A stretch of DNA of 64,000 nucleotides from Chryseolinea serpens (GTDB taxonomy: Bacteria > Bacteroidota > Bacteroidia > Cytophagales > Cyclobacteriaceae). The stretch spans positions 310,001 through 374,000 of the forward strand of contig NZ_FQWQ01000002.1 of the NCBI RefSeq assembly GCF_900129725.1, written 5' to 3'. Shown one piece after another: positions 1,387 through 30,115 of the stretch. Under the pieces are notes generated by a model. That model was given only the letters and a program-made list of their open reading frames with translations, did not search any database and was not told the origin of the DNA. Positions within the stretch are counted from its first letter, which is position 1. Every line of letters begins with the position of its first letter. Made by a program: the position numbers and the translations under genes.

Positions 1387-2115
1387 ATGGCAAGAATATT
1401 CATCACCGGTTCAGCCGATGGGCTTGGTCAAATGGCGGCAGCGTTACTCATCAGTCAAGGACACCAGGTAGTCCTGCATGCACGCAATGCCGGGCGCGGG
1501 CGGCAAGCGCTGCTTGACGTGCCGGGTGCGGAAAATGTTTTGACGGCCGACTTATCCAATATTGAAGAAACAAAACAATTAGCGGCCGATGTAAATGCCC
1601 TGGGCTCTTTTGATGCCATTATCCACAACGCCGGTGTCTATCAGGTGTCGGGCAAACTGATCTTTTCAGTGAACACACTCGCCCCGTACATACTGACCGC
1701 CCTCATTCAAACGCCAAAGCGCTTGATCTACCTCACCTCCGGGATGCATTTGTCGGGCCACCCAAATCTGAATTTCAACTCGGGCGGCATAAGCTATTCC
1801 GATTCCAAACTCTATGTGCTAATGTTGTCCATGGCCGTGGCGCGTAAATGGCCGGAGATCTATTCCAACGCGGTTGACCCAGGCTGGGTGCCTACAAAGA
1901 TGGGTGGCGCAGGCGCCCCGGACAATCTTGAGAAAGGCTTCGAGACACAGGCATGGCTCGCGGTGAGCAATGATGAGAAAGCAAAAGTAACTGGCCGGTA
2001 TTTTCACCACAAGCGGGAAGCGCGTCATCATCCTCAGGCCGGCGACATTAGTTTGCAAGATCGGTTTCTTGCCCTGTGTGAACAGGCTACCGGCGTTCCC
2101 TTTCCAACATCATGA
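1387..2115 (+). CDS. SDR-family oxidoreductase (second, divergent SDR)
   Basis: A 242-residue Rossmann protein starting MARIFITGSADGLG, so the TGxxxGxG motif lies at the extreme N-terminus; this is why ATG 1387 is chosen over the in-frame upstream start at 1294, which would run through the terminator hairpin. It has an HNAG motif where most SDRs have NNAG, and a YSDSK catalytic Y-x3-K. The segment before the tyrosine reads YLTSG, supplying a Ser. It is not a close paralogue of the preceding SDR and is probably transcribed separately, given the terminator between them. Its last six bases overlap the end of the convergent universal stress gene. Substrate unknown. Confidence 0.85.
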   Translation: MARIFITGSADGLGQMAAALLISQGHQVVLHARNAGRGRQALLDVPGAENVLTADLSNIEETKQLAADVNALGSFDAIIHNAGVYQVSGKLIFSVNTLAPYILTALIQTPKRLIYLTSGMHLSGHPNLNFNSGGISYSDSKLYVLMLSMAVARKWPEIYSNAVDPGWVPTKMGGAGAPDNLEKGFETQAWLAVSNDEKAKVTGRYFHHKREARHHPQAGDISLQDRFLALCEQATGVPFPTS

Positions 2116-2922
2116 CAAGATCTTAGCATCGTGCATCACCAATAGCGGCAAGTGCGTATGCGAAGCCATCTCCCGGGTAAAGTGCTTTTGGATAAGTCCA
2201 CCCGAATCGCGTGCAATCATCGCGACCAGTCCGGTGTCGTCGTGTTCGTTGAGATAAAAATTGATCCCCCGGATAACGTTGCCGCTGAAGACCGTGACGC
2301 GTTCCGTTTCAATCTCAGGTTTGAATGCCGAAAGAAGGGCGTCGCGTTCAAGCTTTTTGAGGAAGTCGAGGTTGGTATTTTTCGGCCTGACACTTAGTAC
2401 CCGTATTTTCGGTTCAAGGATCAACAAGGCGATTTCCTTCAGAATGTCGAGGGGATCCTCATTTTCCAAGGCGTCAAGGTCGGTGGCCAAAATCACCCTC
2501 GTTTTTCCCTTTCGGTTGAAGTCTTCAAACCGCGCCACTTCGGGGATGACCAACACGGGGAGCTTCGTATTCGCGATCACGTTCACGGTATTGCTGCCGA
2601 TCAAGATCCTTTTCAAACCACTTGCTCCTTTTGTGCCCATAACGATCAGGTTGGGCCGCTGAGCTTCCGTTATTTCCGTTAGCGCGGCGATCAAACTCCC
2701 CTGCGTTACCAACGACTCACAATTCAAACCGGGGCCGAACGCATTTTTCAAATCCGACATCACTGATTTCAGTTTGCTGTTTGTCCCCGCTTCATCTTCA
2801 TGGTCCGCCTGCACATTCACGATGATGAGACGCGCAGAGGCTCTCTTGGACAATTCCGCGGCAAATGACAATGCGTTTGTCGATGCGTCAGAGAAATCAA
2901 CGGGGGCAATAATTGTTTTCAT
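2110..2922 (-). CDS. Universal stress protein with two USP domains
   Basis: A 270-residue cytosolic protein. Residues 1-145 form a full UspA domain: it opens with the strand MKTIIAPVDFSD, and ends with the ATP-binding signature G-x2-G-x9-G-[ST] seen in VMGTKGASGLKRILIGSNT. The second half (about 150-270) is a degenerate USP repeat: it ends in HLPLLVMHD like a USP domain but lacks the glycine-rich ATP motif. The tandem arrangement of one intact and one degenerate domain is usual in Bacteroidota. Such proteins bind ATP and accompany stress or anaerobic adaptation. It converges on the SDR gene, sharing six terminal bases. Confidence 0.88.
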   Translation of the reverse strand: MKTIIAPVDFSDASTNALSFAAELSKRASARLIIVNVQADHEDEAGTNSKLKSVMSDLKNAFGPGLNCESLVTQGSLIAALTEITEAQRPNLIVMGTKGASGLKRILIGSNTVNVIANTKLPVLVIPEVARFEDFNRKGKTRVILATDLDALENEDPLDILKEIALLILEPKIRVLSVRPKNTNLDFLKKLERDALLSAFKPEIETERVTVFSGNVIRGINFYLNEHDDTGLVAMIARDSGGLIQKHFTREMASHTHLPLLVMHDAKILS

Positions 2923-3075
2923 AAGATTCTGAATGCGTTAACATGAATACGTCCGGCATGGCAGAGATCTTTTTACGGGTGTAAAAAGGGTCTTTCAAAT
3001 CATCTCCTCGAGATCACTATAAGTTAGGCTAAAAAACTTGCTATTCCAGCGCCCGTCGCGGATTCTTTCGTAGTC

Positions 3076-5391
3076 TCACGCAACGGCAGCTGCTTTTTTG
3101 ATTTTTATGATCACTTGCTTTGACGTGGGCGTGTTGCTTTTGTCGGCCACGCTGTTCAGGGGCACCAGCACATTCGTCTCGGGGAAATAGGTGGCCGCGC
3201 AGCCTTCGGGGATCGGGTATTTCACCACAACAAATTTATGGGCCACACGCTCCACACCCTCAAAGCGATTCACCAGGTCCACCAGGTCACCATCCTGCAG
3301 GTCGCGTTGGCGCATGTCATACTCATTCATCAAAACCACCCGGCGCTCGTTGTAAATGCCGCGGTAGCGATCGTTCAAACCGTAGACGGTGGTGTTGAAC
3401 TGGTCGTGACTGCGGATGGTCATCATCATCAGGTCGTCATCCTCCATCGCGATCGAGGAAAGCGGGGCCACGTTAAAGTGCGCTTTAGCCGAGGCAGTTT
3501 GAAAGACTCCCTCGCGGTTGCCATTCGGCAAGTAAAATCCTCCCGGTTTTCGCACGCGTTCGTTATAATTTGCAAATCCCGGAATGGTTCGTTCGATGTC
3601 TTCGCGGATGGCATCGTAGTGTTGTTCGTAGCGGTCCCAGTTAATTTTGCTGCGCGCGCCAAGGGTGGCTTTGGCCAGCCGGGACACCATGACCGGTTCG
3701 CTCAGCAGGTGATCGGAGATGGGTTTTAAAACACCTTTGGACGACTGGACCACGCCCATCGAGTTCTCGCACGACACAAACTGTTCCTCACCATTCACCA
3801 CGTCCTCATCGCTTCGCCCCAGGCAGGGCAGGATGATGGCCTCTTCACCGTGCACGAGATGACTGCGGTTGAGCTTGGTGGACACCTGCACCGTTAAGCT
3901 ACATTTACGAAGCGCTTCGGCCGTCAATGTGGTATCGGGCGTGGCGGAAAGAAAATTCCCACCCATGGCAAAAAAGACTTTGCCCTTGCCCGCATGCATC
4001 GCTTTGATGCTCTCCACCACGTCATAGCCATGTTTGGCGGGCGGTGTGAAATGAAAGTTCTCTTGCAACTTTTGCAAGAACGACGGTGATGGCGTTTCAA
4101 TAATTCCCATCGTGCGATCGCCCTGCACATTGCTGTGTCCCCTCACCGGGCAAGTGCCCGCCCCGGGTTTCCCGATGCTGCCTTTCAACAAAAGTAAGTT
4201 GACCACTTCCTTAATGGTGTCGACTGCATTTTTATGCTGCGTGAGACCCATGGCCCAGCAGACAATAATTTTTGTTTTATGTTTTAAGAGCGTTGCCACT
4301 TCCCGGATCTGTGTCAGCGTGAGGCCCGACGCCTTGCACAACGTGTCCAGGTTCTGTTCTTTTAAATGGTTCGAAAACGCGTTAAAGCCCGTGGTGCTTT
4401 TTGCGATAAAGTCGTGGTCGATCACCTTGCCAGGCGCTTGTTCTTCTTCGTCGAGCAACAGTCGTTGCACCGCCTTTAAGAAAGCCATGTCGCCGTTGAT
4501 CTTTATGGGAAGAAAAAGATCAGACAGCGCCGTGTCGATGCCCAGAATGCCTTTCATCGTTTGTGGGTTGCTAAACCCCATGAGACCGGTTTCGGGTAAC
4601 GGATTAACGGCAATGATCTTCGCTCCCTTTGCTTTGCCTTTTTGCAGGGCAGTGAGCATGCGGGGATGGTTGGTCCCGGGGTTCTGTCCCAGGATCATGA
4701 TCACCTCGGTGTCATAAAAATCTTCGAGGGTGACAGAGCCTTTTCCTATTCCCAGCGACTCTGTCAACGCCACGCCACTGCTCTCGTGACACATGTTGCT
4801 GCAATCGGGCAGGTTGTTGGTGCCGTATTCGCGTACAAATAGTTGGTACAAAAAAGCTGCTTCATTGCTGGTGCGGCCCGAAGTATAGAAAATGGCTTCA
4901 TCGGGTGATGCGAGTTGATTTAACGAAGCCGCGATTTTCTGAAAAGCGCTTTCCCAGGTGATGGGTTGATAGTGCGTGGCGCCCCTTGGTAAAAACATCG
5001 GCTCGGCAAGGCGTCCTTTGCTGCCGATCTCATGATCGGATAATGCAGCTAAATCAGAAACCGAATTTTCCGCAAAGAACGAAGCCGTAAGTTTTTTTGC
5101 GGTGGCTTCTTCGGCCATGGCACGCGCACCATTTTCACAGTACTCAGCGATGCCCGAGCGTTCGTCGTCCGGGTCGGGCCAGGCACAGCTGGGGCAATCG
5201 AAACCTCCTTTTTTATTGAGCTGCCAGAGTCCTTTCATCCCGCGAGCAAAGCCGGCTTCTTCAATCACTTTTTCCATGCTCGATACCACGGCAGGGATGC
5301 CGGCGGCAACCGTTTTGATCTTACCACGCTTCAATCCCGTGAGTTGCTCCGGGTTTTCCGCTTGGGGAATGGGTGTTGCTTCATCGCTCAT
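3076..5391 (-). CDS. FdhF/YdeP-family molybdopterin oxidoreductase (formate dehydrogenase-like)
   Basis: About 771 residues from ATG 5391, chosen because it follows the stop of the upstream gene by one base; a longer in-frame start at 5472 would lie inside that gene. C66, C69 and C85 (CPSC...YCENG) are the FdhF/YdeP N-terminal iron-sulfur ligands. C201 in SNMCHESSG is the expected molybdenum ligand, a cysteine and not selenocysteine. The C-terminal MopB-type domain follows (about 650-771). There is no signal peptide, so it is cytoplasmic. The upstream fdhD agrees with a bis-MGD enzyme. YdeP-type proteins are often annotated as formate dehydrogenases, but the substrate of this branch is uncertain; no electron-acceptor subunit is adjacent. 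Confidence 0.88.
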   Translation of the reverse strand: MSDEATPIPQAENPEQLTGLKRGKIKTVAAGIPAVVSSMEKVIEEAGFARGMKGLWQLNKKGGFDCPSCAWPDPDDERSGIAEYCENGARAMAEEATAKKLTASFFAENSVSDLAALSDHEIGSKGRLAEPMFLPRGATHYQPITWESAFQKIAASLNQLASPDEAIFYTSGRTSNEAAFLYQLFVREYGTNNLPDCSNMCHESSGVALTESLGIGKGSVTLEDFYDTEVIMILGQNPGTNHPRMLTALQKGKAKGAKIIAVNPLPETGLMGFSNPQTMKGILGIDTALSDLFLPIKINGDMAFLKAVQRLLLDEEEQAPGKVIDHDFIAKSTTGFNAFSNHLKEQNLDTLCKASGLTLTQIREVATLLKHKTKIIVCWAMGLTQHKNAVDTIKEVVNLLLLKGSIGKPGAGTCPVRGHSNVQGDRTMGIIETPSPSFLQKLQENFHFTPPAKHGYDVVESIKAMHAGKGKVFFAMGGNFLSATPDTTLTAEALRKCSLTVQVSTKLNRSHLVHGEEAIILPCLGRSDEDVVNGEEQFVSCENSMGVVQSSKGVLKPISDHLLSEPVMVSRLAKATLGARSKINWDRYEQHYDAIREDIERTIPGFANYNERVRKPGGFYLPNGNREGVFQTASAKAHFNVAPLSSIAMEDDDLMMMTIRSHDQFNTTVYGLNDRYRGIYNERRVVLMNEYDMRQRDLQDGDLVDLVNRFEGVERVAHKFVVVKYPIPEGCAATYFPETNVLVPLNSVADKSNTPTSKQVIIKIKKAAAVA

Positions 5392-5392
5392 G

Positions 5393-5761
5393 CTAACAGA
5401 CCTTTTTAGGGTTTTCGAAATTGTCCGATTGATCTTCCAACGTGTTGTCCAGGCATTTAAAATCTTTCTCAAGCAAGAGGTACAAGGTTTCGGTTTCGCT
5501 CACGGCCTGGTGTGCATCAAATCCCACTACGGTATTTTCCGGCCAACCGGTTACGAGCGTTTCGGGAACAGATAACGTAATTTTATTCTCACGGTAATTT
5601 GCCGAAAGCGCTTTTATTCCAGCCTTTCTTTCCACCGCATAACTGAAGTAGGTTGTACCAAACGAAGTTTTGTCCTCCAAAAGTCCTTTCGTACTCAACT
5701 TCTCCACTTCCGATTTCGACAATCGCACACGAATGGAATTTGCACTGATTCTTATTTTCAT
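5393..5761 (-). CDS. DUF7009-family small protein of the Fdh operon
   Basis: A 122-residue soluble protein starting MKIRISANSIRVRLSKSEV. The fold looks like a compact beta-rich domain, and the C-terminus carries a Cys and acidic patch (KDFKCLDNTLEDQSDNFENP). I recognise it as the DUF7009 type commonly found next to FdhF-like oxidoreductases in Bacteroidota; its biochemical role is not established. It sits between fdhD and the oxidoreductase with 15-bp and 1-bp spacing, so co-translation is likely and a role in maturation or activity of the molybdoenzyme is a reasonable inference. Confidence 0.7.
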   Translation of the reverse strand: MKIRISANSIRVRLSKSEVEKLSTKGLLEDKTSFGTTYFSYAVERKAGIKALSANYRENKITLSVPETLVTGWPENTVVGFDAHQAVSETETLYLLLEKDFKCLDNTLEDQSDNFENPKKVC

Positions 5762-5776
5762 CTTATTCGTTTTATG

Positions 5777-6610
5777 CTATACAAAAACAACCCGGTGGCT
5801 GGCGGAATAAATATTGAATTTTTCATTTCCCAAAAAGCCGATGAGGGTGATCCCAAATTCTTCCGCCTGTTGCAGGGCCAGGCTGGAAGGCGCCCCGATC
5901 GCGGCGATTACTTTTATCCCTGCCATGCTGGCCTTTTGGATCAATTCAAAACTTGCCCTGCCGCTCAGCAGCAGGATCGTGTGGTCTAAGGGCAATTGGT
6001 CATTTAAAAAGGAAGCTCCAATCACTTTGTCCAACGCATTGTGCCGGCCCACGTCTTCCCGCAGCATGATCAGGTTCCCCTCCGCGTCAAACAACGACGA
6101 GGCATGCAGCCCTCCCGTGCTGGCAAATAACTCCTGTTGCTTTTTTAAGGCGATGGGCAGACGATGAAAAACCGCAGCGCTCACCTGCAGGGAGTCGTCT
6201 TGCTGTGCATACATGGAAACGGTTTTAATCGCATCGATGCCAGCCTTGCCACATACCCCACAGCTTGAGGTGGTGTAGAAATTCCGGTCGGCGGTTTGAA
6301 GATGGGGCACCGCTGTGTCGGCAAGTTCCACGACCATTTTGTTTTCATCTTCGCCATCGGCCCGGATGTGGGTGATCTCTTTTCTGTTGTTGATGATCCC
6401 CTCGGTAAACAAAAAACCCGCGGCGAGTTCGTCATCATTTCCGGGCGTGCGCATGGTGACTGAAATAACTTTGGTGGTCCTGTTGCCGGCAGCACCATAC
6501 ACCAACTGTATTTCCAACGGTTCTTCCACGGCCAGTTGGTCGTCGATCTCCAGCGTGCCTTTTTGCGTTACCCTGGTTATTTTGATATGTCTCACCGCGC
6601 TCGCTTGCAT
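5777..6610 (-). CDS. fdhD: Formate dehydrogenase accessory sulfurtransferase FdhD
   Basis: 277 residues with the FdhD hallmarks: the sulfur-relay motif C117-x2-C120 in SSCGVCGKAG and the downstream DVGRHNALDKVIG segment. FdhD moves sulfur from a cysteine desulfurase to the molybdenum cofactor so that formate dehydrogenase becomes active. It is the first gene of the minus-strand operon fdhD-DUF7009-oxidoreductase, which places its client enzyme immediately downstream. ATG at 6610 is the only sensible start. Cytoplasmic. Confidence 0.95.
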   Translation of the reverse strand: MQASAVRHIKITRVTQKGTLEIDDQLAVEEPLEIQLVYGAAGNRTTKVISVTMRTPGNDDELAAGFLFTEGIINNRKEITHIRADGEDENKMVVELADTAVPHLQTADRNFYTTSSCGVCGKAGIDAIKTVSMYAQQDDSLQVSAAVFHRLPIALKKQQELFASTGGLHASSLFDAEGNLIMLREDVGRHNALDKVIGASFLNDQLPLDHTILLLSGRASFELIQKASMAGIKVIAAIGAPSSLALQQAEEFGITLIGFLGNEKFNIYSASHRVVFV

Positions 6611-20809: not shown

Positions 20810-22249
20810 TCACCACAGCCACCACTCTGTTTTCACACCGAAATAATGGCCCCATCGCTTGCTGCCGGTTTGCGCGAGGTAAGGCGAGTACAGGTGATCC
20901 GCCGCAAATTTATTGTAGTGCGCCACACTGTAGACCAGCCTGAAATGGGGACGGCTCCAGACATCCCGCTTGCCATTCGGAACAACCGTTGGCGCGATAC
21001 TGAATTTAATCATCTGCGCCGGATCCTGGGTCCCATCTTTTCGGGAAGAGAAATCCAGTTCATGTAACAAATGGAACCAATCTTTAATGTACCATGTGCC
21101 CCGGGCCCCAATCGCGAAATCGATTTTTCGGTTAAACACGGGTCGCCCCTGGTAATCGAGTGTTGTGTTCAGGCTATCGCTGGCGCCCTTGCTCTTTGTG
21201 AAAATGCCATAGGCATTCAGGGAATAGCGGGGGCTCACATTCCACAAAATACTTTCCGTGATCGCCATGGACCATGCTTTTCGAAAGCGTTGTGTTTCCA
21301 GGTTGGGACCGCCATACGTCAGGAAAGTTTTGCTGGCACCACCATCGCCACCATTGGCTATGCCCGTGCCGAAGCGAACACTCATATCGAAAAAAGAACC
21401 CGGCAAACGTGTAGAGAGATTCTGCTTGTACTTGGCACCCAACACGTATCCATAGTCAGCAGGATAATTCAGGCTGGTTGTGGTGTCCGACAGCGTACCG
21501 TTTGCCAGCCGGTGATACTCGGCCAGGAACTTGAGATACCCATTTTTCACAGGGAGAATGTGCTCCAAAATATAAACGGCCCGATTGCGCAATCCGAGCA
21601 CGGGCGTGCCGTTGACGATGTTCAGGTAAAAGTAAGGCGGCAGTGTCGACGCCGTATCCACGGCGGTGGGAAACATCACCGAGAATTGTGTCTGCTTGTA
21701 TTGTATGCCAAACCCTTGCGCGCTATGATCATCAAAATAAAAGTGATCGATGATGTGAATGTCGTCGCCCCGAAAAAAACGCGCGCCAACCCAAACCGTC
21801 CAGGGGCTGCCGCGGATGTTTTTTGCTTCGGCAAAAAGTTCGGGTAATGCCGTGGTAATGCCACCGTATGATTTGCTGGTAACGTTGCCAATGATCTGGC
21901 CTTGCGTGGTATAAAAAGCAAAACGCGCCTGGACGGTGATGTGGGTTGTGTCGGAAGCTGCCCCCACCGGCGCAAAATGAAGTGCCGTGGCCAATTCAAA
22001 GTAGTCCACTTCTTCCATGCGCCCTCCTATGGACCCCATCCCATTGAGGTTGAGCGGCCGGGGGTACTGAATGTTGTCACCCCTGGCGATGCCCACCCTC
22101 CCATAGCTTCCGATGGAAAAGTGTTTATTCGTCACTACCGGTACTTGTGCACGGAGGCAAAAGATCACGCCCGGTAACATGACACCCAGAAGATAAACGC
22201 TCTTTCGAATAACGCTTACGGTTCTGCCGGATGTGCTGACGTTCATCAT
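20810..22249 (-). CDS. LamB-like carbohydrate porin
   Basis: 479 residues with an N-terminal signal region (hydrophobic VYLLGVMLPGVIFCLRAQ). The mature protein follows the maltoporin pattern: FSIGSYGRVGIA at the start, WVGARFFRGDDIHIIDHFYF like the conserved LamB segment, and it ends with a beta strand closing in aromatic residues (GHYFGVKTEWWLW), as outer-membrane barrels do. Alternating strands continue over the full length. Maltoporins form trimeric channels for sugars. Substrate specificity cannot be read here, and there is no sugar-utilisation gene next to it. Starts at the first of two adjacent ATGs. Confidence 0.75.
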   Translation of the reverse strand: MMNVSTSGRTVSVIRKSVYLLGVMLPGVIFCLRAQVPVVTNKHFSIGSYGRVGIARGDNIQYPRPLNLNGMGSIGGRMEEVDYFELATALHFAPVGAASDTTHITVQARFAFYTTQGQIIGNVTSKSYGGITTALPELFAEAKNIRGSPWTVWVGARFFRGDDIHIIDHFYFDDHSAQGFGIQYKQTQFSVMFPTAVDTASTLPPYFYLNIVNGTPVLGLRNRAVYILEHILPVKNGYLKFLAEYHRLANGTLSDTTTSLNYPADYGYVLGAKYKQNLSTRLPGSFFDMSVRFGTGIANGGDGGASKTFLTYGGPNLETQRFRKAWSMAITESILWNVSPRYSLNAYGIFTKSKGASDSLNTTLDYQGRPVFNRKIDFAIGARGTWYIKDWFHLLHELDFSSRKDGTQDPAQMIKFSIAPTVVPNGKRDVWSRPHFRLVYSVAHYNKFAADHLYSPYLAQTGSKRWGHYFGVKTEWWLW

Positions 22250-22968: not shown

Positions 22969-23643
22969 ATGAGTTTACTTAGACGGAGACTTCTGACGGC
23001 CATTTTACTAGTGGCCGGCTATTGTGGCTACATTGCCGCCTGTACCCACGAAGATGAGTTGTTAACCAGCCAGGGACCTAATATCGAACGTGGCGACGAA
23101 AAAGTTTCCCTGGAAAGCACCAATACTTCCTTCGACAAAGCACACTCCAACGTCCAATGGGCATCCGCCTATCTCGGGGCCACCTCTTTGTTGACGGGTC
23201 GTTTTGACAATTTTGGTTTTGACACGTTCAACTTTGACGAATCCAATGCCGCGGGAATTAGTTTCTCGGCCTGGGTATGGCTGAATTCCGTAAACACCAG
23301 CGAACCCGGCCGCGACGACGGATGTCTTCTCCAGACCTTTGGAACATCCGGGAATCTCACCACCGAAGATGAAAACCTCGCCATCATCACCAGCAAGAAA
23401 GTGGAGTTGAGCACGACCGATAAAGGGTACAACGTTACGGCGGATCTAACATTCCACGGCGTCACGAAAGAAGTGACCTGCAAAATGAACTACGATGGCA
23501 AGACCGCGTCGGGCGGAAATGACGTCTATGGGTTCAGTCTTCAATTCCAATTTCTTGCTAAAACCGATTTCCTGATCGAGTCCAGCAATGTTGGTGACAA
23601 TGCTGATGTGAAGTGTAATGCCGTATTCCGGGTGGCTAACTGA
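22969..23643 (+). CDS. YceI-like lipoprotein, first gene of redox operon
   Basis: 224 residues. Signal with lipobox (VAGYCGYIAAC; lipidated C25). The mature domain is YceI-like: FDKAHSNVQWASAYLGAT is the typical opening strand pair, and ADLTFHGVTKEVTCKMNY is the conserved core of that lipocalin-like fold. YceI proteins bind polyisoprenoids or similar amphiphiles in the periplasm; relatives are often encoded with cytochromes. It begins a run of eight same-strand genes with gaps mostly under 80 bp, so it is probably part of a respiratory-type operon. Confidence 0.85.
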   Translation: MSLLRRRLLTAILLVAGYCGYIAACTHEDELLTSQGPNIERGDEKVSLESTNTSFDKAHSNVQWASAYLGATSLLTGRFDNFGFDTFNFDESNAAGISFSAWVWLNSVNTSEPGRDDGCLLQTFGTSGNLTTEDENLAIITSKKVELSTTDKGYNVTADLTFHGVTKEVTCKMNYDGKTASGGNDVYGFSLQFQFLAKTDFLIESSNVGDNADVKCNAVFRVAN

Positions 23644-23708
23644 TCCATTCGACAGCATTTTTCATTCGCCAAACTACAATTGTGAACAGTATCTAAAATC
23701 GAAACAAG

Positions 23709-24098
23709 ATGCGTCGAACATTACTCACCAGTCTGTTTATCATCGCCTTCGTTGGGGTGTGTTCAGTAGGATGCTATAAAGATGTCATCAGCCCCGGATC
23801 CGACCCCAACGGCCCTCCGCAATTTGTAAGTTTCAGCGGAGATCTTATCCCGCTCTTTAACGCACATTGCAATAGCACGGGCTGCCACGATGCAGGACCT
23901 GCTCACGCGCCTTCGCTTGTCCCGGAAAAAGCATACAACGCGATCATCTCCGGTGGTTATGTAAATACGGCGGTGCCAAACTCCAGCAAGCTTTACACGG
24001 TCGTGCAGACCGGCTCGATGCCTCCTACGGGAGCGCTACCGGCCAACAATGCGCAGTTGATCCTGGATTGGGTCAGAAATGGAGCACCCAATAACTAA
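23709..24098 (+). CDS. Cytochrome c-like lipoprotein with CX4CH site
   Basis: 129 residues with a lipoprotein signal (FIIAFVGVCSVGC; lipidated C21 or C17). The haem site reads C-N-S-T-G-C-H, i.e. CX4CH and not the usual CX2CH, in HCNSTGCHDAG. GSMPPTG supplies a plausible methionine axial ligand and LILDWVRNGAP is the usual C-terminal helix of small class I cytochromes. CX4CH haem sites occur in some multihaem cytochromes and need suitable maturation. An electron-carrying role in the operon is likely. An alternative is a haem-free relative. Confidence 0.75.
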   Translation: MRRTLLTSLFIIAFVGVCSVGCYKDVISPGSDPNGPPQFVSFSGDLIPLFNAHCNSTGCHDAGPAHAPSLVPEKAYNAIISGGYVNTAVPNSSKLYTVVQTGSMPPTGALPANNAQLILDWVRNGAPNN

Positions 24099-24114
24099 GT
24101 ATTGAACCCGCAAC

Positions 24115-25035
24115 ATGCAACGTATGAAGGCTTCCATCCTAAACCAAAAAATAAAAGTCCCGGGTTTGATCTCGCTCGCGCTGATCCTGTTGTTATGGAA
24201 CCCCGTTTATAGCCAGGAGGATTCTGTCGCCGCCCCGACGGCCAAGGCTTCAAAGCCTGTAAAAAATATGTTTTCGGGCATATGGTTGATCGACAACCAG
24301 AGCGCCATGGTGCCCATCAAGGGAACTTTTGAATTTGACATCCTTCACCGGTTTGGCGTGGTCAACAATGGATATGAAGATTTCTTCGGTCTGTTTGCCT
24401 CTTCGAACATCCGCCTGGGCTTCAACTACAGCCCTATTGATCGTCTTTACGTCGGCTTCGGGCTGACGAAATACAAAATGTTATGGGACGTCAATGCCAA
24501 ATATGCCATTTTTCAACAAACGAGCGACGGACGATGGCCGGTGAGTATTACCTACTACGGGAATGCTGCCATCGACACACGTTCAGAAGAATTTTTTGTT
24601 CATTTTTCAGACCGGCTGAGCTACTTCAATCAAATCATCATTGCCCGCAAGATCACCCCGAAATTTTCCGCGCAGATCGCCCCGAGCCTCTCCCACACCA
24701 ACGTGGTGAACGGCTACTATAGCGAACCGGGCGTCGTGAGTCCGGAAAGAAAGCACGACCACTTTGCCGTGGCGATCTCCGGAAGGTATAAACTGACCGA
24801 GACACTTTCCGTATTGGCAAATTATGATCAGCCGATCACAAAGCATAAGTCGGGAAATCCACATCCCAACCTCTCTTTTGGGTTGGATGTGACCACGAGT
24901 TCGCACTCGTTCCAACTCTTCTTTGGCAACTACTATTTCCTGTCGCCACAACAAAACAACATGTATAACGCCAACGACTATACGAAAGGGCAATACCTTA
25001 TTGGATTCAACATCACAAGACTCTGGAATTTCTGA
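24115..25035 (+). CDS. DUF5777-family outer-membrane beta-barrel
   Basis: 306 residues; signal peptide ending near VYSQ (a second ATG at 24124 is equally possible as start). The body alternates strands and aromatic turns (GTFEFDILHRFGVVNNGYED, 20 residues, then FGLFASSNIRLGFNYSP) and ends in ITRLWNF, a typical barrel terminus. I assign DUF5777, a Bacteroidota barrel family. It sits 16 bp after the CX4CH cytochrome and before a soluble cytochrome c, so it could be the outer-membrane part of the same module, for example a channel for substrate or electron carrier. Function of the family is unknown. Confidence 0.8.
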   Translation: MQRMKASILNQKIKVPGLISLALILLLWNPVYSQEDSVAAPTAKASKPVKNMFSGIWLIDNQSAMVPIKGTFEFDILHRFGVVNNGYEDFFGLFASSNIRLGFNYSPIDRLYVGFGLTKYKMLWDVNAKYAIFQQTSDGRWPVSITYYGNAAIDTRSEEFFVHFSDRLSYFNQIIIARKITPKFSAQIAPSLSHTNVVNGYYSEPGVVSPERKHDHFAVAISGRYKLTETLSVLANYDQPITKHKSGNPHPNLSFGLDVTTSSHSFQLFFGNYYFLSPQQNNMYNANDYTKGQYLIGFNITRLWNF

Positions 25036-25111
25036 CCTCCTGCAGGCTTCCTGCGGACCAAGGAAACGACTGAATTTAGAACACTAACGCATCACATTAA
25101 AACATACCACT

Positions 25112-25516
25112 ATGAAATTAAAACTTTCAACCCTATCCTACCTGGTACCCAGCGTACTTTTAATTTTTGGATTCTCTGCATCCCTTGCTCAACAACCTTG
25201 GGTTGCGCCGGAGAAGGTTGCCAAAATGGCTAACCCGGTAAAATCCGACGCCGAGTCGCTCGACAACGGCAAATCGTTGTGGGTGACACACTGCCAGTCC
25301 TGTCATGGAAAAAAAGGAAAAGGTGATGGAAGTAAAGCGGCGCAATTAAAGACCCCTGTCGGCGATTTTACTTCGGCGGATTTTCAAAAGCAATCCGACG
25401 GTTCGATCTTCTACAAAACCAGTGAGGGCAGAACGGATATGCCGAGTTTCAAAAAGAAGATCCCGGACGCAGACGACATTTGGAGCCTGGTGAACTACAT
25501 CCGCACATTGAAGTAA
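25112..25516 (+). CDS. Monohaem cytochrome c (class I)
   Basis: 134 residues with signal peptide (LIFGFSASLAQ). Haem site C61-Q-S-C64-H65 followed by GKKGKGDG, and a methionine in TDMPSFKKKI as the sixth ligand; the fold ends with IWSLVNYIRTLK. It is a soluble periplasmic electron carrier, likely the exit or entry point for electrons to the NrfD/ferredoxin subunits encoded downstream. Confidence 0.93.
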   Translation: MKLKLSTLSYLVPSVLLIFGFSASLAQQPWVAPEKVAKMANPVKSDAESLDNGKSLWVTHCQSCHGKKGKGDGSKAAQLKTPVGDFTSADFQKQSDGSIFYKTSEGRTDMPSFKKKIPDADDIWSLVNYIRTLK

Positions 25517-25549
25517 TCGTCTTTTGAAGATGAACGAGAAACACCTGCC

Positions 25550-25789
25550 ATGAAAGTCGCAAAGGATAGGATCAAAAACGGCCGAAGAAGATTGTTCTAT
25601 TGGGCAGCCGGAATGCTGTCGACCCTTGTTTTTTGGCGCGTTTACAAAAAGGTGAAAAAGGAAAATGAACCGGTCAGAATGCTAACGGAGGATGGCCAGT
25701 TGGTGGAGGTGGATCCCCGCTATTTCACCAGCAAGGGACGAAAGATAAAAGCAAACGAACTTCACACCTGGATCAAGCGCAAAAAATAA
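25550..25789 (+). CDS. Small membrane-anchored protein of the redox operon
   Basis: 79 residues: a basic N-terminus, one membrane helix (YWAAGMLSTLVFWRVY, about 17-32), then a soluble tail VRMLTEDGQLVEVDPRYF. That tail matches a segment of the next gene product, VKLLSVDGEVIEVDRAFL at residues 45-62, so the two proteins share a short module. The positive-inside rule is ambiguous, as both flanks are basic. Probably a structural or docking subunit of the complex. No known family recognised. Confidence 0.7.
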   Translation: MKVAKDRIKNGRRRLFYWAAGMLSTLVFWRVYKKVKKENEPVRMLTEDGQLVEVDPRYFTSKGRKIKANELHTWIKRKK

Positions 25790-25818
25790 GTGTTTGCAAG
25801 AACAAAAAAACGTGAGCC

Positions 25819-26742
25819 GTGGAAAACAACGTGACCAGTAGAAGAAACTTTCTCGCCACCGGGCTGGCCGCCGCCGCAGGATGTGCCAATTGCTCTTGCG
25901 GAAAGAGTCATACGCATGAAGCGCAGGACATCCAGCCGACCGGGGAGAAAGTGAAATTGCTGTCGGTAGATGGCGAAGTGATCGAAGTGGATCGCGCTTT
26001 TCTGAAACCGGTCCCGGATCTGCCAAAAGTCAGCAACGACATCGAACGCCGCGGGATCGAGGGAAAGAAGTTTGTGATGGTCATCGATCTGTCCCGGTGC
26101 AAGAACGTTGGTGCGTGCAAGGAAGCCTGCAATCATGCACACAGCCTGCATCCGGATCACAACTGGATCAAGATCGACGCGATGCAGGACGCCGAAGAAA
26201 GTGCACCCTACTGGCAACCCACCACGTGCATGCACTGCGACAACCCGCCTTGTGTAAAAGTTTGTCCCGTCGATGCCACGTTCAAACGGCAAGATGGCAT
26301 TGTGTTGATCGATAGCGATCGCTGCATTGGTTGTCGTTTCTGTATGGCCGCCTGTCCCTATTCCACGCGAGTGTTCAATTGGGGAGATCCCCAGGTGCCC
26401 GAACCCCTGGCCAGTGAGCCGTATTCCTGCGAGACGAGCACGCCGCAAAAAATTGGAACGGTTGGCAAATGTGATTTCTGTCCCGACATGGCCAGAAAAG
26501 GCGAGCTGCCGCATTGCGTATCCGCTTGCCCCAATGGCGTCTTTTTCTTTGGCGATATGAATGAAGACAGTGTGACCAACGGCGCGGAAACATTCCGGTT
26601 TAGCGAATTGGTACGCGATAAGGCCGGCTACCGGCTCATGGAAGACCTGGGTACCAAACCCAGTGTCTACTATCTCCCGCCTGTGAATCGCAATTTCCCA
26701 TTTGAACCCAAGAGCGAAAACAAAGAACCCACGGTGACCTGA
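25819..26742 (+). CDS. Tat-exported 4Fe-4S ferredoxin-type subunit
   Basis: 307 residues, GTG start at 25819. N-terminus SRRNFLATGLAAAAGC is a Tat signal with a possible lipobox (C22). The mature part has four cysteine clusters: C94/C100/C104, C137/C140/C145/C149, C170/C173/C176/C180, and C218/C221/C233/C237, as in HybA, NrfC and PsrB electron-transfer subunits. It passes electrons between a periplasmic partner and the membrane quinone pool. It overlaps the NrfD gene by one base (TGATG), a strong sign of a joint complex. No molybdopterin catalytic subunit is next to it. Confidence 0.92.
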   Translation: MENNVTSRRNFLATGLAAAAGCANCSCGKSHTHEAQDIQPTGEKVKLLSVDGEVIEVDRAFLKPVPDLPKVSNDIERRGIEGKKFVMVIDLSRCKNVGACKEACNHAHSLHPDHNWIKIDAMQDAEESAPYWQPTTCMHCDNPPCVKVCPVDATFKRQDGIVLIDSDRCIGCRFCMAACPYSTRVFNWGDPQVPEPLASEPYSCETSTPQKIGTVGKCDFCPDMARKGELPHCVSACPNGVFFFGDMNEDSVTNGAETFRFSELVRDKAGYRLMEDLGTKPSVYYLPPVNRNFPFEPKSENKEPTVT

Positions 26743-28073
26743 TGGACGACACGATGAGTCAAGTATCCACTACCAGCGCTGATAAGATCATTGCTGATCT
26801 CTATCCCAGGAAATTCGGAACTGCCGGCCGGATCTGGACGCTCGTATTGTTGGTCATCTGCGCCATCGGGGCATATGCCTACTACCGGCAGCTTCGCTAT
26901 GGCCTGGAAGTAACCGCCATGAGAGACTATGCCTCCTGGGGTATTTACATTTCAAATTTTGTGTTCTTTGTCGCCATCAGTCTTGTCGGTTCCCTGATCA
27001 CGGCCATCCTGAGACTCTCCAATGCCCGGTGGAGCACACCGCTCACGAGAATTGCAGAAATTATAGCGGTCTCTGCGATTGTGTTTGCTTCCATCATCAT
27101 CATCGTCGATATGGGTAGGCCGGAAAGATTCATGAACATCTTTCTTCACCTGCGCATTCAATCGCCGATCATTTGGGATGTCGTGGTGATCTCGACCTAC
27201 TTTGTGATCAGTCTGCTCTTGTTGTACTTACCGCTCCTTCCCGATCTGCAGATCCTAACCACCGACCCGGAAAAAAATTCAGGCTTTCAGAACAAGCTCT
27301 ATCGATTGCTGGGTTCGTTCTGGAGAGGAACCCAAGAACAACTCCGGATCTGCAACCGCTCGATCTACATTCTGTGCATTACCATCATTCCCGTGGCGTT
27401 CACCATTCACACCGTGACATCCTGGCTGTTCGCCACCACGTTCCGCCCGGGCTGGGACAGCACAAACTTCGGAGCCTACTTCATATCGGGCGCATTCCTG
27501 GTTGGCGGCGGCGCGGTGTTGGTCGCCATGTATCTCTTCCGCAGATCGTATCACCTGGAGAATTATATCACTACCGACCTCTTTGACAAAATGGGAAAGA
27601 TCGTGGTCATGCTGGCTTTGCTTTACCTGTATTTTAATGTCAACGAATATCTCGTACCGGCTTTCAAAATGAAGAAGCCGGAAGAAATCCACCTCCATGA
27701 GTTGTTTGCCGGAAAGTATGCGCTGATCTTCTGGTTCGCCATCCTGGTGGGAATGATCTTTCCATTGATCATGCTGCTCTTCCGGAAAGGCCGGGAGCCG
27801 TTTCCTGCTTTCGTGGCGGGTGTCATGGTCGTTGTCGGTGCGTGGTTCAAGCGTTACCTCATCGTCACCCCAACCCTGCTGCATCCTTTCCTTCCCATTA
27901 CAGATGTTCCCGAGTCGTATCGGCGTTACTTTCCTTCGTGGGAGGAATGGGCCATTACGATGGGATCGCTGGCCGGTGCCTTGCTGATCATCACTTTTTT
28001 TGCCAGGCTGTTCCCGATCATACCCATTTACGAAACGGTAACCGAAAGAAGTGAGACCCATGAAAACCTATAG
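26742..28073 (+). CDS. NrfD/PsrC-family quinone-interacting membrane subunit
   Basis: 443 residues with about ten predicted membrane helices, the first at IWTLVLLVICAIGAYAYY and the second in the typical YASWGIYISNFVFFVAISL stretch (19 residues). VDMGRPERFMNIFLH is the conserved NrfD loop between helices 3 and 4. Ten helices match the ActC/QrcD-like subgroup more than the eight-helix PsrC type. It exchanges electrons and protons with menaquinone at the cytoplasmic membrane and pairs with the ferredoxin-type subunit encoded directly upstream. The start codon overlaps that gene's stop. Confidence 0.92.
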   Translation: MDDTMSQVSTTSADKIIADLYPRKFGTAGRIWTLVLLVICAIGAYAYYRQLRYGLEVTAMRDYASWGIYISNFVFFVAISLVGSLITAILRLSNARWSTPLTRIAEIIAVSAIVFASIIIIVDMGRPERFMNIFLHLRIQSPIIWDVVVISTYFVISLLLLYLPLLPDLQILTTDPEKNSGFQNKLYRLLGSFWRGTQEQLRICNRSIYILCITIIPVAFTIHTVTSWLFATTFRPGWDSTNFGAYFISGAFLVGGGAVLVAMYLFRRSYHLENYITTDLFDKMGKIVVMLALLYLYFNVNEYLVPAFKMKKPEEIHLHELFAGKYALIFWFAILVGMIFPLIMLLFRKGREPFPAFVAGVMVVVGAWFKRYLIVTPTLLHPFLPITDVPESYRRYFPSWEEWAITMGSLAGALLIITFFARLFPIIPIYETVTERSETHENL

Positions 28074-28953
28074 AGCGCTTAGAAACGTGTTACTATTGAT
28101 TTGCTGTCCACTCCTGATCGCGGCCCAGGAGAATACCGCAAAAAAAGAGGAGCGTCAATCGCTGATCTATCTCCGTTATTATGTCATCAACAACCGGGTG
28201 CCCTATCTTCAGGTTCAGACAAAAAATAAACTTGGCCGGGCTTTCCTGCCGCAGGCAAACGTATCTGTGAAAATTTACCTGAATCACGATGCTGACGCCG
28301 AGTCACTCATGGGCCAGGTGGTGACCAATGAAAAAGGCGTCGCCACCCTTGGGCTGCCGGCCTCGTTGGCAGGCAAATGGAAGGAAAAATCCAATCCCAC
28401 ATTTTTCGCGCATACCGATTCTTCAGCCGATTTCAACGCCACACAGGAGGAACTTTCGATGATCAAATCATTTCTGGAGGTTGACACGGCAAATGAAGGG
28501 GGTGCACGGATCTTGAAGGCGCGTCTTTTCAAATACGAAAATAATTCGCGGGTGCCCATGGCTGAGGTAGATGTCCGGCTGGCGGTGAAACGATTGGGGG
28601 GCTATCTCAACATTGGTGAAGAAGAATCCTATACAACCGATTCTACCGGCAGCGCTCAAGGTGAATTTAACCGAACGGATCTCCCGGGCGACACGCTTGG
28701 AAACCTCGACGTCGTAGCCCTGGTGGATGACAACGATGAAGTGGGCACGCTTGAAACGCAGATGAAAGTACCTTGGGGCGCGCCGGGTAAGTTTGAAAGC
28801 AATTTTAACGATCGATCACTCTATGCAACCGGAAACAAAGCCCCGCTCTGGCTAATGGTCATGGCCTATGGCTGTATTGCAGGCGTATGGTCGGTGATTA
28901 TTTATCTCATCACCAGGATCATTAAAATGAAGCGCATGGCAAGAAGCATTTAA
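28060..28953 (+). CDS. Periplasmic protein with C-terminal anchor, end of redox operon
   Basis: 297 residues from ATG 28060, overlapping the NrfD gene by 14 bp. Signal peptide LLLICCPLLIAAQ. The periplasmic part shows beta-rich Ig-like segments (LPQANVSVKIYLN, PMAEVDVRLAVKR, each followed by a KGVATLGLP-type strand), then one membrane helix at about 265-285 (WLMVMAYGCIAGVWSVIIYL) and a basic cytoplasmic tail. No known family recognised. Position and overlap indicate a subunit or assembly factor of the redox module. Confidence 0.72.
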   Translation: MKTYRALRNVLLLICCPLLIAAQENTAKKEERQSLIYLRYYVINNRVPYLQVQTKNKLGRAFLPQANVSVKIYLNHDADAESLMGQVVTNEKGVATLGLPASLAGKWKEKSNPTFFAHTDSSADFNATQEELSMIKSFLEVDTANEGGARILKARLFKYENNSRVPMAEVDVRLAVKRLGGYLNIGEEESYTTDSTGSAQGEFNRTDLPGDTLGNLDVVALVDDNDEVGTLETQMKVPWGAPGKFESNFNDRSLYATGNKAPLWLMVMAYGCIAGVWSVIIYLITRIIKMKRMARSI

Positions 28954-29002: not shown

Positions 29003-30115
29003 ATGAAAAAGATCATCTTATCCTGCTGGGTAGTGGCCCTGAGTTTGCTCACGCTACCCGCCATTGCCCAAACCGAACGCGACTCGACATTATTGGGCTT
29101 GCCGGGCGACAACCTGGATCTTTATGCGGTGCTGGATCTTTTCCAAAAATCAAAGACCATCGAAGATTTTGAAAAGTCATTGAATCTTGAAAAAACGGGA
29201 ATCAATAATCTCGATCTGGATTTGGACAATAAAGTCGATTTCATCAAGGTGGAGACCAAGAAGGACGGCGATAATTTTACGTTTATTCTCCAGGTGGCGG
29301 TCAGTAAAACAGAAACACAGGATGTCGCCGTGATATTGGTAACGAAGGATGAAAAGAAAAAGATCTCGATGCAGATTGTAGGCGATGAAGACCTGTATGG
29401 CAAAAACTATATCGTTGACCTAAAAGAATCCAAAACCCCGGCCGTCACTGCCAACCCTGCCTACACGGGGCCGGACACCGTTGTTGTGAAGAGCGCTCCT
29501 GCAAAGTCTACCGTTGTCGTGGTCGAATCTGCGCCAATCGTACAATATGTTTATTCCCCTGCCTATGTTCCGTATTATCCGCCGTATCACTATGGATACT
29601 ATCCTCCCTATTTTGCGGCCTTTTCCGTGATGGCCATCGGTATTTACATCGGCAGTCATTCTTACTACCACGGAGGTTATGGGTATCATGGCAATACCAC
29701 CGTCATTCACAACACCAACAATTTTAACAATTACAATAATAATTCCAGGAACCGGTCGAATACCGTGAACCACAACAAGGCAAACGGCGATTATAACCGG
29801 CGTGACAATGCATCGAACCGTACAGCGAACCGGGCGTCGACACGTCCGTCCGGCGGAGCATCAACACGTCCATCCACCCGTCCATCCACGGGAGCGTCGA
29901 CGCGTCAGTCGCCTGCCGTCCGGCAATCCGCGGGAGTGTCTGATCGTCAGTCCTCCAACTTTTCTTCTCCGTCCAGGTCGAGTTCAAGCGGGGCATCCCG
30001 TTATAATAGCGGCTCCCGGAGCAGTGGTGGTTTTAGCGGAGGTGGAGGTGGAGGTTTTGGTGGAGGGGGTTCCAGGGGGGGTGGTGGCTCCAGGGGTGGT
30101 GGCAGAAGACGTTAG
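29003..30115 (+). CDS. Secreted protein with Gly/Ser/Arg-rich low-complexity tail
   Basis: 370 residues with a signal peptide (to about IAQ). Residues 25-150 form an ordered domain with acidic repeats (NNLDLDLDNKVDFIKVETKK). Then come Tyr/Pro-rich YVPYYPPYHYGYYPPYF, an Asn-rich stretch, a Thr/Ser/Arg-rich region repeating R-x-S-x-x-R-P-S, and a Gly-rich end (GGGGGGFGGGGSRGGGGSRG, 20 residues). Such tails occur in surface or aggregating proteins. It starts 50 bp after the redox operon and could be its last gene, but has no redox motif. Confidence 0.75.
   Translation: MKKIILSCWVVALSLLTLPAIAQTERDSTLLGLPGDNLDLYAVLDLFQKSKTIEDFEKSLNLEKTGINNLDLDLDNKVDFIKVETKKDGDNFTFILQVAVSKTETQDVAVILVTKDEKKKISMQIVGDEDLYGKNYIVDLKESKTPAVTANPAYTGPDTVVVKSAPAKSTVVVVESAPIVQYVYSPAYVPYYPPYHYGYYPPYFAAFSVMAIGIYIGSHSYYHGGYGYHGNTTVIHNTNNFNNYNNNSRNRSNTVNHNKANGDYNRRDNASNRTANRASTRPSGGASTRPSTRPSTGASTRQSPAVRQSAGVSDRQSSNFSSPSRSSSSGASRYNSGSRSSGGFSGGGGGGFGGGGSRGGGGSRGGGRRR

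Follow-up and report, generated by a model that had tools for sequence, protein, structure and literature searches.

Positions 22969 to 28953 of the window, by which we mean the whole 64,000-nucleotide stretch of Chryseolinea serpens DNA that was analysed, hold eight genes on the + strand that we describe here as a candidate quinone:cytochrome c module built around an NrfD-type membrane subunit. Open reading frame (ORF) calling and family scans of the window confirmed the eight co-directional genes that had been proposed from the sequence alone (hereafter the first-pass annotation), and also the overlaps at the end of the set, which amount to 1 base pair (bp) between F and N and 14 bp between N and A. 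The genes are listed below with the short names used in the text; Tat stands for twin-arginine translocation.

22969..23643, + strand: Y, YceI-family lipoprotein in the first slot (Pfam YceI, 9.8e-15; YceI-type PDB entry 7bwl, 7.2e-07)
23709..24098, + strand: C1, probable monohaem c-type cytochrome lipoprotein with a CX4CH motif (C54-C59-H60 and lipobox C22)
24115..25035, + strand: D, DUF5777 outer-membrane beta-barrel of about 12 strands (Pfam, 2.1e-81; structure model; Foldseek)
25112..25516, + strand: C2, periplasmic monohaem cytochrome c with a CX2CH motif (Pfam Cytochrome_CBB3, 3.4e-11)
25550..25789, + strand: S, small protein of 79 residues, homologous to the N-terminal segment of F and probably Tat-type (profile-profile comparison)
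25819..26742, + strand: F, Tat-exported four-cluster ferredoxin subunit of NrfC/PsrB/DsrO type (Pfam Fer4_11, 6.1e-19)
26742..28073, + strand: N, NrfD-type ten-helix quinone-binding subunit (Pfam NrfD, 7.7e-33)
28060..28953, + strand: A, subunit with a signal peptide, two beta-sandwich domains and a C-terminal helix (profile, structure model and linkage to N)

S was read directly from the sequence as it lies below the 80-residue limit of the ORF calling, and the start of A was taken as the ATG at 28060, with a GTG at 28051 as the alternative. The Pfam scan gave no family match for C1, and neither A nor S had a family match above cut-off in the Pfam and NCBIfam scans.

The description of N as a ten-helix NrfD subunit is borne out by its Pfam match and by ten hydrophobic segments in the alignment with ActC and DsrP proteins. 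At least 95% of 68 sequences share residues D123, S141 and Y153 of N, which have the same spacing as D120, S138 and Y150 of QrcD, where S138 and Y150 are reportedly essential and D120 is one of the residues changed (PMC13059093). An excerpt on the NrfD family gives a quinone-pocket Ser and an acidic or His residue in transmembrane helix 2 as family criteria (PMC8076601); N has the pocket Ser as S141 and the acidic residue as D123, and D123 aligns with a His in ActC and an Asp in DsrP. The other features of the NrfC/NrfD (PsrB/PsrC) dimer were found as well, that is, an NrfD protein with 8-10 helices, a four-cluster ferredoxin partner and conserved Cys sets. N thus retains residues of a P-side quinone site by alignment, and quinone activity is predicted. 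In one divergent clade of paralogues (third copy of loci L084 and L108) the quinone-site Asp is lost and the Ser is kept.

The nearest solved relative of F is PsrB-type 2vpw (3.7e-30, 108 bits in the PDB search), and F itself has a TAT_signal match below its cut-off; an RR-x-F/L type start is present in 54 of 65 F relatives. The first-pass reading of F as a Tat-exported ferredoxin stands as regards the four clusters and the Tat-type start, to which a lipobox-like motif in 50 of the 65 relatives has to be added. By analogy, Y181 of F, which follows the CPY motif, may match Y113 of QrcC. S had been described as a small anchored protein and needs correction: in one profile-profile comparison it matched the N-terminal part of F (E 3.3e-13, Prob 97.9), both proteins share the motif L(T/S)xDGx(L/I)(V/I)EVD, the LT.DG.LV motif of S is present in at least 95% of 43 sequences, and 31 of 42 S relatives have an R(R/K)xF start. 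Given this likeness, S appears to be a separate copy of that part of F, and more than an anchor.

The distribution of A was followed in a family sample of 196 genomes, where its profile matches 27, exactly the 27 that have this type of N (E <1e-60). In the examined loci, some of them overlapping, 105 of 108 separate A proteins adjoin N on the same strand and the remaining 3 sit at the end of the retrieved stretch. Seven N-like proteins were found without A, namely ActC (five rows from four genes) and two at a stretch end. Also, N and A form one ORF in L077, in L012/L099 (both from genome G061) and in L008 of G069, where a contig end truncates it, giving 4 fused ORFs from 3 genomes, and in G056 (C37) the N and A matches share one 761-residue frame as well. 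Since A occurs in the same 27 genomes as N, adjoins it and is naturally fused to it, this protein without a known family is evidently a true subunit of the module as judged from the sequences. The first-pass annotation had it as an anchored periplasmic protein, which we refine to two predicted beta-sandwich (Ig/macroglobulin-like) domains and one C-terminal helix (predicted local distance difference test score, pLDDT, of 88.9 from 54 sequences). No more specific fold emerged, as only generic macroglobulin/transglutaminase-type matches were obtained with template-modelling (TM) scores of 0.2-0.3 by query length. The plasmid search gave no match to A.

A scan of bacterial genomes with N gave 56 named loci, of which 55 have titles that name a Bacteroidota group and one (L048) is given only as an uncultured bacterium; the carriers include Flavihumibacter, Mucilaginibacter, Emticicia and many metagenome-assembled genomes of Chitinophagaceae. 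Gene neighbours were assigned by simple ORF calling and BLAST, and only stretches reaching far enough were counted. F adjoins N in 48 of 49 assessable loci and A in 49 of 51, where L067 is scored as a miss for both (its best N copy lies on the minus strand, in the order A-, N-, F-) and L077 as a miss for A on account of the fusion. Among the 39 loci with 5 kilobases (kb) before N, and counting neighbours within 7 kb before N (for C2 also up to 2 kb after it, and for EB_dh anywhere in the stretch), C2 was found in 35, D in 30, C1 in 28, and either YceI or EB_dh in 33. The same order of genes is seen again in many of the 56 loci, which is more than chance would give. There are also tandem arrays of two or three F-N-A sets and copies without C1 and D (L084, L100, L102, L103), from which we take F-N-A as the core. 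The check suggested by the first-pass annotation, co-occurrence of all eight families, thus came out divided: the F-N-A core is conserved and Y, C1 and D are in some cases absent or located apart from it, so that the eight genes are not one indivisible unit. Some of the tandem sets of L100, L102, L103 and L084 lie beside a hexahaem NapC/NirT-type protein. In a phylum sample N occurs in 10 of 395 genomes at E <=1e-130, which together with the 27 of 196 in the family sample makes the F-N-A module a patchy accessory trait. No published description of this operon was found in the titles and abstract beginnings of open-licence papers.

Systems of this kind usually come with a large catalytic enzyme. 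The operon was said to lack a catalytic molybdoenzyme, and the Pfam scan indeed finds no molybdopterin catalytic subunit in it. The genome holds three PF00384 matches, by eye a NasC-like assimilatory nitrate reductase, a YdeP/FdhF-like protein and NuoG, none of which looks exported, other molybdoenzyme families not having been searched; a hidden molybdoenzyme partner was rejected on these matches. Beside the relatives a weak BLAST test with the first two PF00384 proteins and ActB over 105 loci returned, above 450 residues, only ActB and its orthologues. Multihaem genes are also far from constant companions, as ORFs with at least three CXXCH motifs occur in 5 of the 56 named loci; the relatives therefore do not always bring a molybdopterin or multihaem gene, and the constant presence of such a gene, named in advance as speaking against the proposal, is not what was observed. 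Several paralogous clusters hold the hexahaem NapC/NirT-type protein (PF03264) and pentahaem lipoproteins with a collagen-like stretch (Collagen match below its cut-off). Two of the latter (L104:9163-10341 and L108:3856-5016), near F-N-A paralogues, are perhaps surface cytochromes. The YdeP/FdhF-like gene, with FdhD, lies in the window itself.

3076..5472, - strand: YdeP/FdhF-like protein, with FdhD, about 17 kb from the operon

By eye it belongs to a close group of - strand genes at 2110-6610, together with a universal stress protein and FdhD, 16-20 kb from the operon.

The closest known systems are alternative complex III (ACIII, ActABCDEF) and DsrMKJOP. Like ACIII, the operon combines an NrfD quinone subunit with a Tat-exported [4Fe-4S] protein that would feed a periplasmic cytochrome c; the nearest solved relatives of N are ActC chains (6f0k_C, 154 bits), and N is 27-29% identical to four ActC proteins. 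Unlike ACIII, it has no multihaem ActA, no MopB part fused to F and no second NrfD protein (ActF), it has Asp instead of His at the quinone-site position of N, and it carries the extra subunit A. The best NCBIfam scores of F and N are for DsrO (187.8 bits, cut-off 200) and DsrP (133.6 bits, cut-off 350), and the quinone-site motif DMGRP is the same as in DsrP. Unlike DsrMKJOP, the operon misses both of these curated cut-offs and lacks DsrM, DsrK and DsrJ; in the phylum sample, the DsrP cut-off is exceeded by proteins in 48 of the 395 genomes. The ActC (4) and DsrP (6) proteins, in a tree of 39, each form a clade with 100/100 support that excludes N, with the warning by the tree program that the long branches of ActC and DsrP meet, and the 29 rows of the N family form one group with a support of only 51/38. 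ActF (a very long branch), two antisense 'DsrP' ORFs (L124, L143) and nine N-family rows were left out of this tree. The same genome also holds an ACIII-type cluster elsewhere (L091), in which ActA, B, C, E and F were recognized by eye, followed by oxidase-like genes. The claim that the module is related to ACIII and distinct from it is upheld by the position of N and by this separate cluster. Membership of ACIII was rejected since N is outside the ActC clade, F is a 307-residue protein without a MopB part and the operon has no ORF with at least three CXXCH motifs, and membership of DsrMKJOP was rejected on the two cut-offs and the lack of dsrM, dsrK and dsrJ in the operon.

Three further systems share part of the design. 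In QrcABCD, QrcA is multihaem and QrcB is molybdo-like, and the metal reducers have NrfD-based quinol:cytochrome complexes (Geobacter Cbc type) that join an iron-sulfur protein, NrfD and cytochrome c toward the outer membrane by means of multihaem cytochromes. The likeness to Qrc covers the iron-sulfur/NrfD redox dimer, the P-side menaquinone site with D, S and Y at equal spacing and the exchange with a periplasmic cytochrome; the operon differs in having neither QrcA nor QrcB, and the QrcD residue Y110 is unmatched in N. Unlike the Cbc type, the window operon carries monohaem cytochromes only. With BcnA-LcoA it shares the linkage of a YceI lipocalin gene to the gene of an inner-membrane redox protein; unlike that pair it has c-type cytochromes and an outer-membrane barrel, YceI can be replaced by EB_dh, and no cytochrome b561 is among the Pfam matches of the operon.

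At the presumed outer-membrane end, the lipobox Cys25 of Y is kept in at least 95% of 25 sequences, but the first slot is not reserved for YceI: among the 39 loci, 12 have YceI only, 16 have EB_dh only, 5 have both and 6 have neither. One representative (PF09459, 2.6e-20) served to identify the EB_dh type, all 23 EB_dh-type proteins of the examined loci have a CX3CH motif, and a second variant (L096) is EB_dh with CX2CH. In C1, at least 95% of 40 sequences have C54, C59, H60 and the lipobox C22, and in C2 at least 95% of 60 have C61, C64, H65 and M110. The CX4CH of C1 and the CX3CH of EB_dh would bind haem, and it may be added that another CX4CH protein of the genome scores 26.8 bits with Cytochrome_CBB3 (cut-off 27). 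The model of D (pLDDT 87.9) is a barrel of about 12 strands that in Foldseek resembles NanC, FapF, OmpG, COG4313 and FadL-type barrels with TM scores of 0.3-0.5 by query and, for NanC, up to 0.67 by target; as these are only generic barrels, no specific function follows. As regards porin-cytochrome conduits, in which a multihaem cytochrome threads through an outer-membrane barrel, the window operon has a predicted barrel and only monohaem motifs, and multihaem ORFs occur in the 5 loci given above. Two further DUF5777 genes of the genome each lie beside a YceI-like gene (L092:7453-10753 and L093:7855-9271), so a YceI-DUF5777 unit exists without F-N-A, and one of these loci also encodes a Lipoprotein_15 protein and an SprB-repeat protein with a CX4CH domain at its end. 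The first-pass annotation had taken YceI and DUF5777 to suggest that the substrate is amphiphilic or crosses the outer membrane. As an EB_dh CX3CH protein often fills the YceI slot and the barrel has no telling match, the amphiphilic substrate lacks support and was rejected; the quinone-cytochrome module itself is supported.

Upstream of the operon in the relatives, 21 of 30 loci have a TGA-N6-TCA box in the 300 bp ahead of the first gene, as opposed to 64 of 251 control regions; single boxes were counted in 22 of 33 regions, where mononucleotide shuffling gave a mean of 2.4. Pairs of boxes exactly 22 bp apart number 38 in 887 kb of the named loci, and no other spacing between 12 and 60 occurs more than 3 times. 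Such a tandem pair lies within 300 bp before the operon in 9 of 30 loci and, for other genes, in 6 of 251 regions, part of them shared with the operon. It lies within 350 bp of Y or EB_dh in 16 of 33 loci, where the 350-bp rule was set after the box positions were seen. In all these box counts near-identical loci (such as L046/L049) were kept as separate. FNR (TTGAT-N4-ATCAA) and CRP (TGTGA-N6-TCACA) sites were found in none of the 33 upstream regions. Two other genus members have the tandem box, with scores of 26.5 (overlapping the longest possible Y start) and 21.2. Examples are found at L034:4766, L064:5237, L056:5431, L053:6289 and L035:8719, and tandem boxes also precede universal stress protein genes in two loci. 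The tandem boxes likely mark a Crp/FNR-type regulon of Chitinophagaceae and their relatives, and a Crp-type regulator would bind them. A PAS histidine kinase and a response regulator whose output domain is Crp occur in 8 of the 56 loci, a ScdA/hemerythrin protein in 4 and a universal stress protein of one type in 3 (these families were identified by Pfam on L034 and by BLAST on the other loci). These surroundings perhaps point to a low-oxygen regulon. At the genome level, nosZ is present in 23 of 27 carriers and 86 of 169 others (p 7e-4), and EB_dh in 9 of 27 and 6 of 169 (p 1.4e-5), both by Fisher tests that ignore relatedness; in 6 of the 9 EB_dh carriers the gene is on the same contig as N. 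The cbb3 oxidase was rejected as a specific partner, since ccoN is found in 173 of the 196 genomes.

To rationalize these observations, we give about an even chance to the reading that the operon encodes a membrane quinone:cytochrome c oxidoreductase with an electron relay to the outer membrane, working most likely outward from quinol. N would take up menaquinol, the quinone of Bacteroidota being menaquinone, at the periplasmic face and would pass the electrons through the [4Fe-4S] clusters of Tat-exported F, with A as a fixed third subunit whose beta-sandwich domains would lie in the periplasm and hold or dock the partner. C2 would ferry the electrons across the periplasm to an outer-membrane end formed by C1, the barrel D and the lipoprotein Y, whose place EB_dh takes elsewhere. 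Menaquinol oxidation in Bacteroidota is usually credited to ACIII, and the flow would most likely be out of the quinol pool, as an extra low-oxygen outlet beside the ordinary ACIII of the genome. These genes form a conserved, predicted quinone:cytochrome module of NrfD type that brings a subunit of its own, and it most likely serves as an electron outlet at low oxygen. The wider proposal is possible and rather doubtful, namely that menaquinol:cytochrome c oxidoreductases based on NrfD have a widespread third kind, marked by A and free of a molybdo or multihaem catalytic part, that it feeds a low-oxygen outlet at the outer membrane made of the monohaem CX4CH lipoprotein, the DUF5777 barrel and YceI or EB_dh interchangeably, and that in many lineages a Crp-type regulator activates it at the 22-bp tandem boxes. 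If true, Bacteroidota would have a second, accessory quinone:cytochrome module that possesses a subunit of its own and ends at the outer membrane, a respiratory branch invisible to current annotation that could help explain their low-oxygen life; the tandem box, the fusions of N with A and the family of A itself would serve as markers for finding the module and make the idea testable.

Several points weigh against the favoured reading of an outward relay. We infer the path and direction of the electrons, the location of C1, D and Y and the low-oxygen role; D is by its model a generic barrel, for which electron conduction cannot be assumed, and C1 is absent before N in 11 and D in 9 of the 39 loci. 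The proton-path residue Y110, essential in QrcD, falls by spacing on I113 of N. The tandem box is absent from the window promoter region (best score -0.4, compared with 19.8-41.7 in the training set) and from the nearest relative (L094), and this genome has no match to EB_dh. Also, the nosZ and EB_dh associations come from tests blind to relatedness, there is no nosZ match in G163 (the closest operon), G004, G145 and G181, some of which are drafts, and ccoN does not discriminate.

The opposite direction is unlikely on the present evidence. Here a reduced compound would be oxidised at or outside the outer membrane and the electrons would run from C1 through C2, F and N to menaquinone, as in Qrc, which has the matching quinone-site residues and is reported to reduce menaquinone (PMC13059093), and the proteins in the YceI or EB_dh position could deal with a substrate or ligand. 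The window operon has no candidate dehydrogenase for such a flow, however, and the regulatory surroundings of some relatives would rather resemble low-oxygen electron disposal.

A plain shuttle role of C2, from quinol to a periplasmic acceptor encoded elsewhere such as nitrous oxide reductase or cbb3 oxidase, with the outer-membrane genes as a separate matter, appears quite unlikely. In its favour are the nosZ enrichment, the near-general ccoN, the cbb3-assembly-like genes that by eye adjoin the operon in L064 and the YceI-DUF5777 pairs without F-N-A in this genome, yet the four genomes named above have the module without a nosZ match, and F-N-A is accompanied by D in 30 and by C1 in 28 of the 39 loci.

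It is improbable that the operon serves envelope protection centred on YceI, in which the F-N-A core would re-reduce a YceI-bound quinone that quenches lipid peroxyl radicals, as proposed for BcnA/LcoA. YceI does head this operon, and most YceI structures reportedly hold an isoprenoid and some ubiquinone-8, Burkholderia bcnA and lcoA mutants have more lipid peroxidation, and the re-reduction of the BcnA-bound quinone by LcoA (cytochrome b561) is a presumption of the authors (PMC9113575). Against this, EB_dh stands without YceI in 16 of the 39 loci, the neighbours in some relatives suggest low oxygen, and there would be no need for the c-type cytochromes. That the operon is a reduced or diverged ACIII or DsrMKJOP, for which the ActC and DsrO/DsrP matches would speak, is extremely improbable, and as membership it is already largely refuted by the two missed cut-offs, the ActC and DsrP clades that exclude N (subject to the long-branch warning), the lack of ActA, ActF and DsrMKJ in the operon and the finding of no A beside the four ActC genes examined.

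Other genes around the operon were also recorded. A LamB-type porin gene (20810-22249, - strand) is divergent from it and accompanies it in the nearest relative L094 (87%), and is unlabelled in a set of 87 loci. Directly 3′ of the operon and probably outside it, a low-complexity secreted protein is encoded at 29003-30115, which is 83-87% alike in the nearest relative (L003/L094) and unlabelled at other loci. In L034 (13246-16078), Thioredoxin_7, ApbE, DUF4266 and DUF3570 genes follow in series downstream of the operon, and the ApbE and DUF3570 genes are found again in L044.

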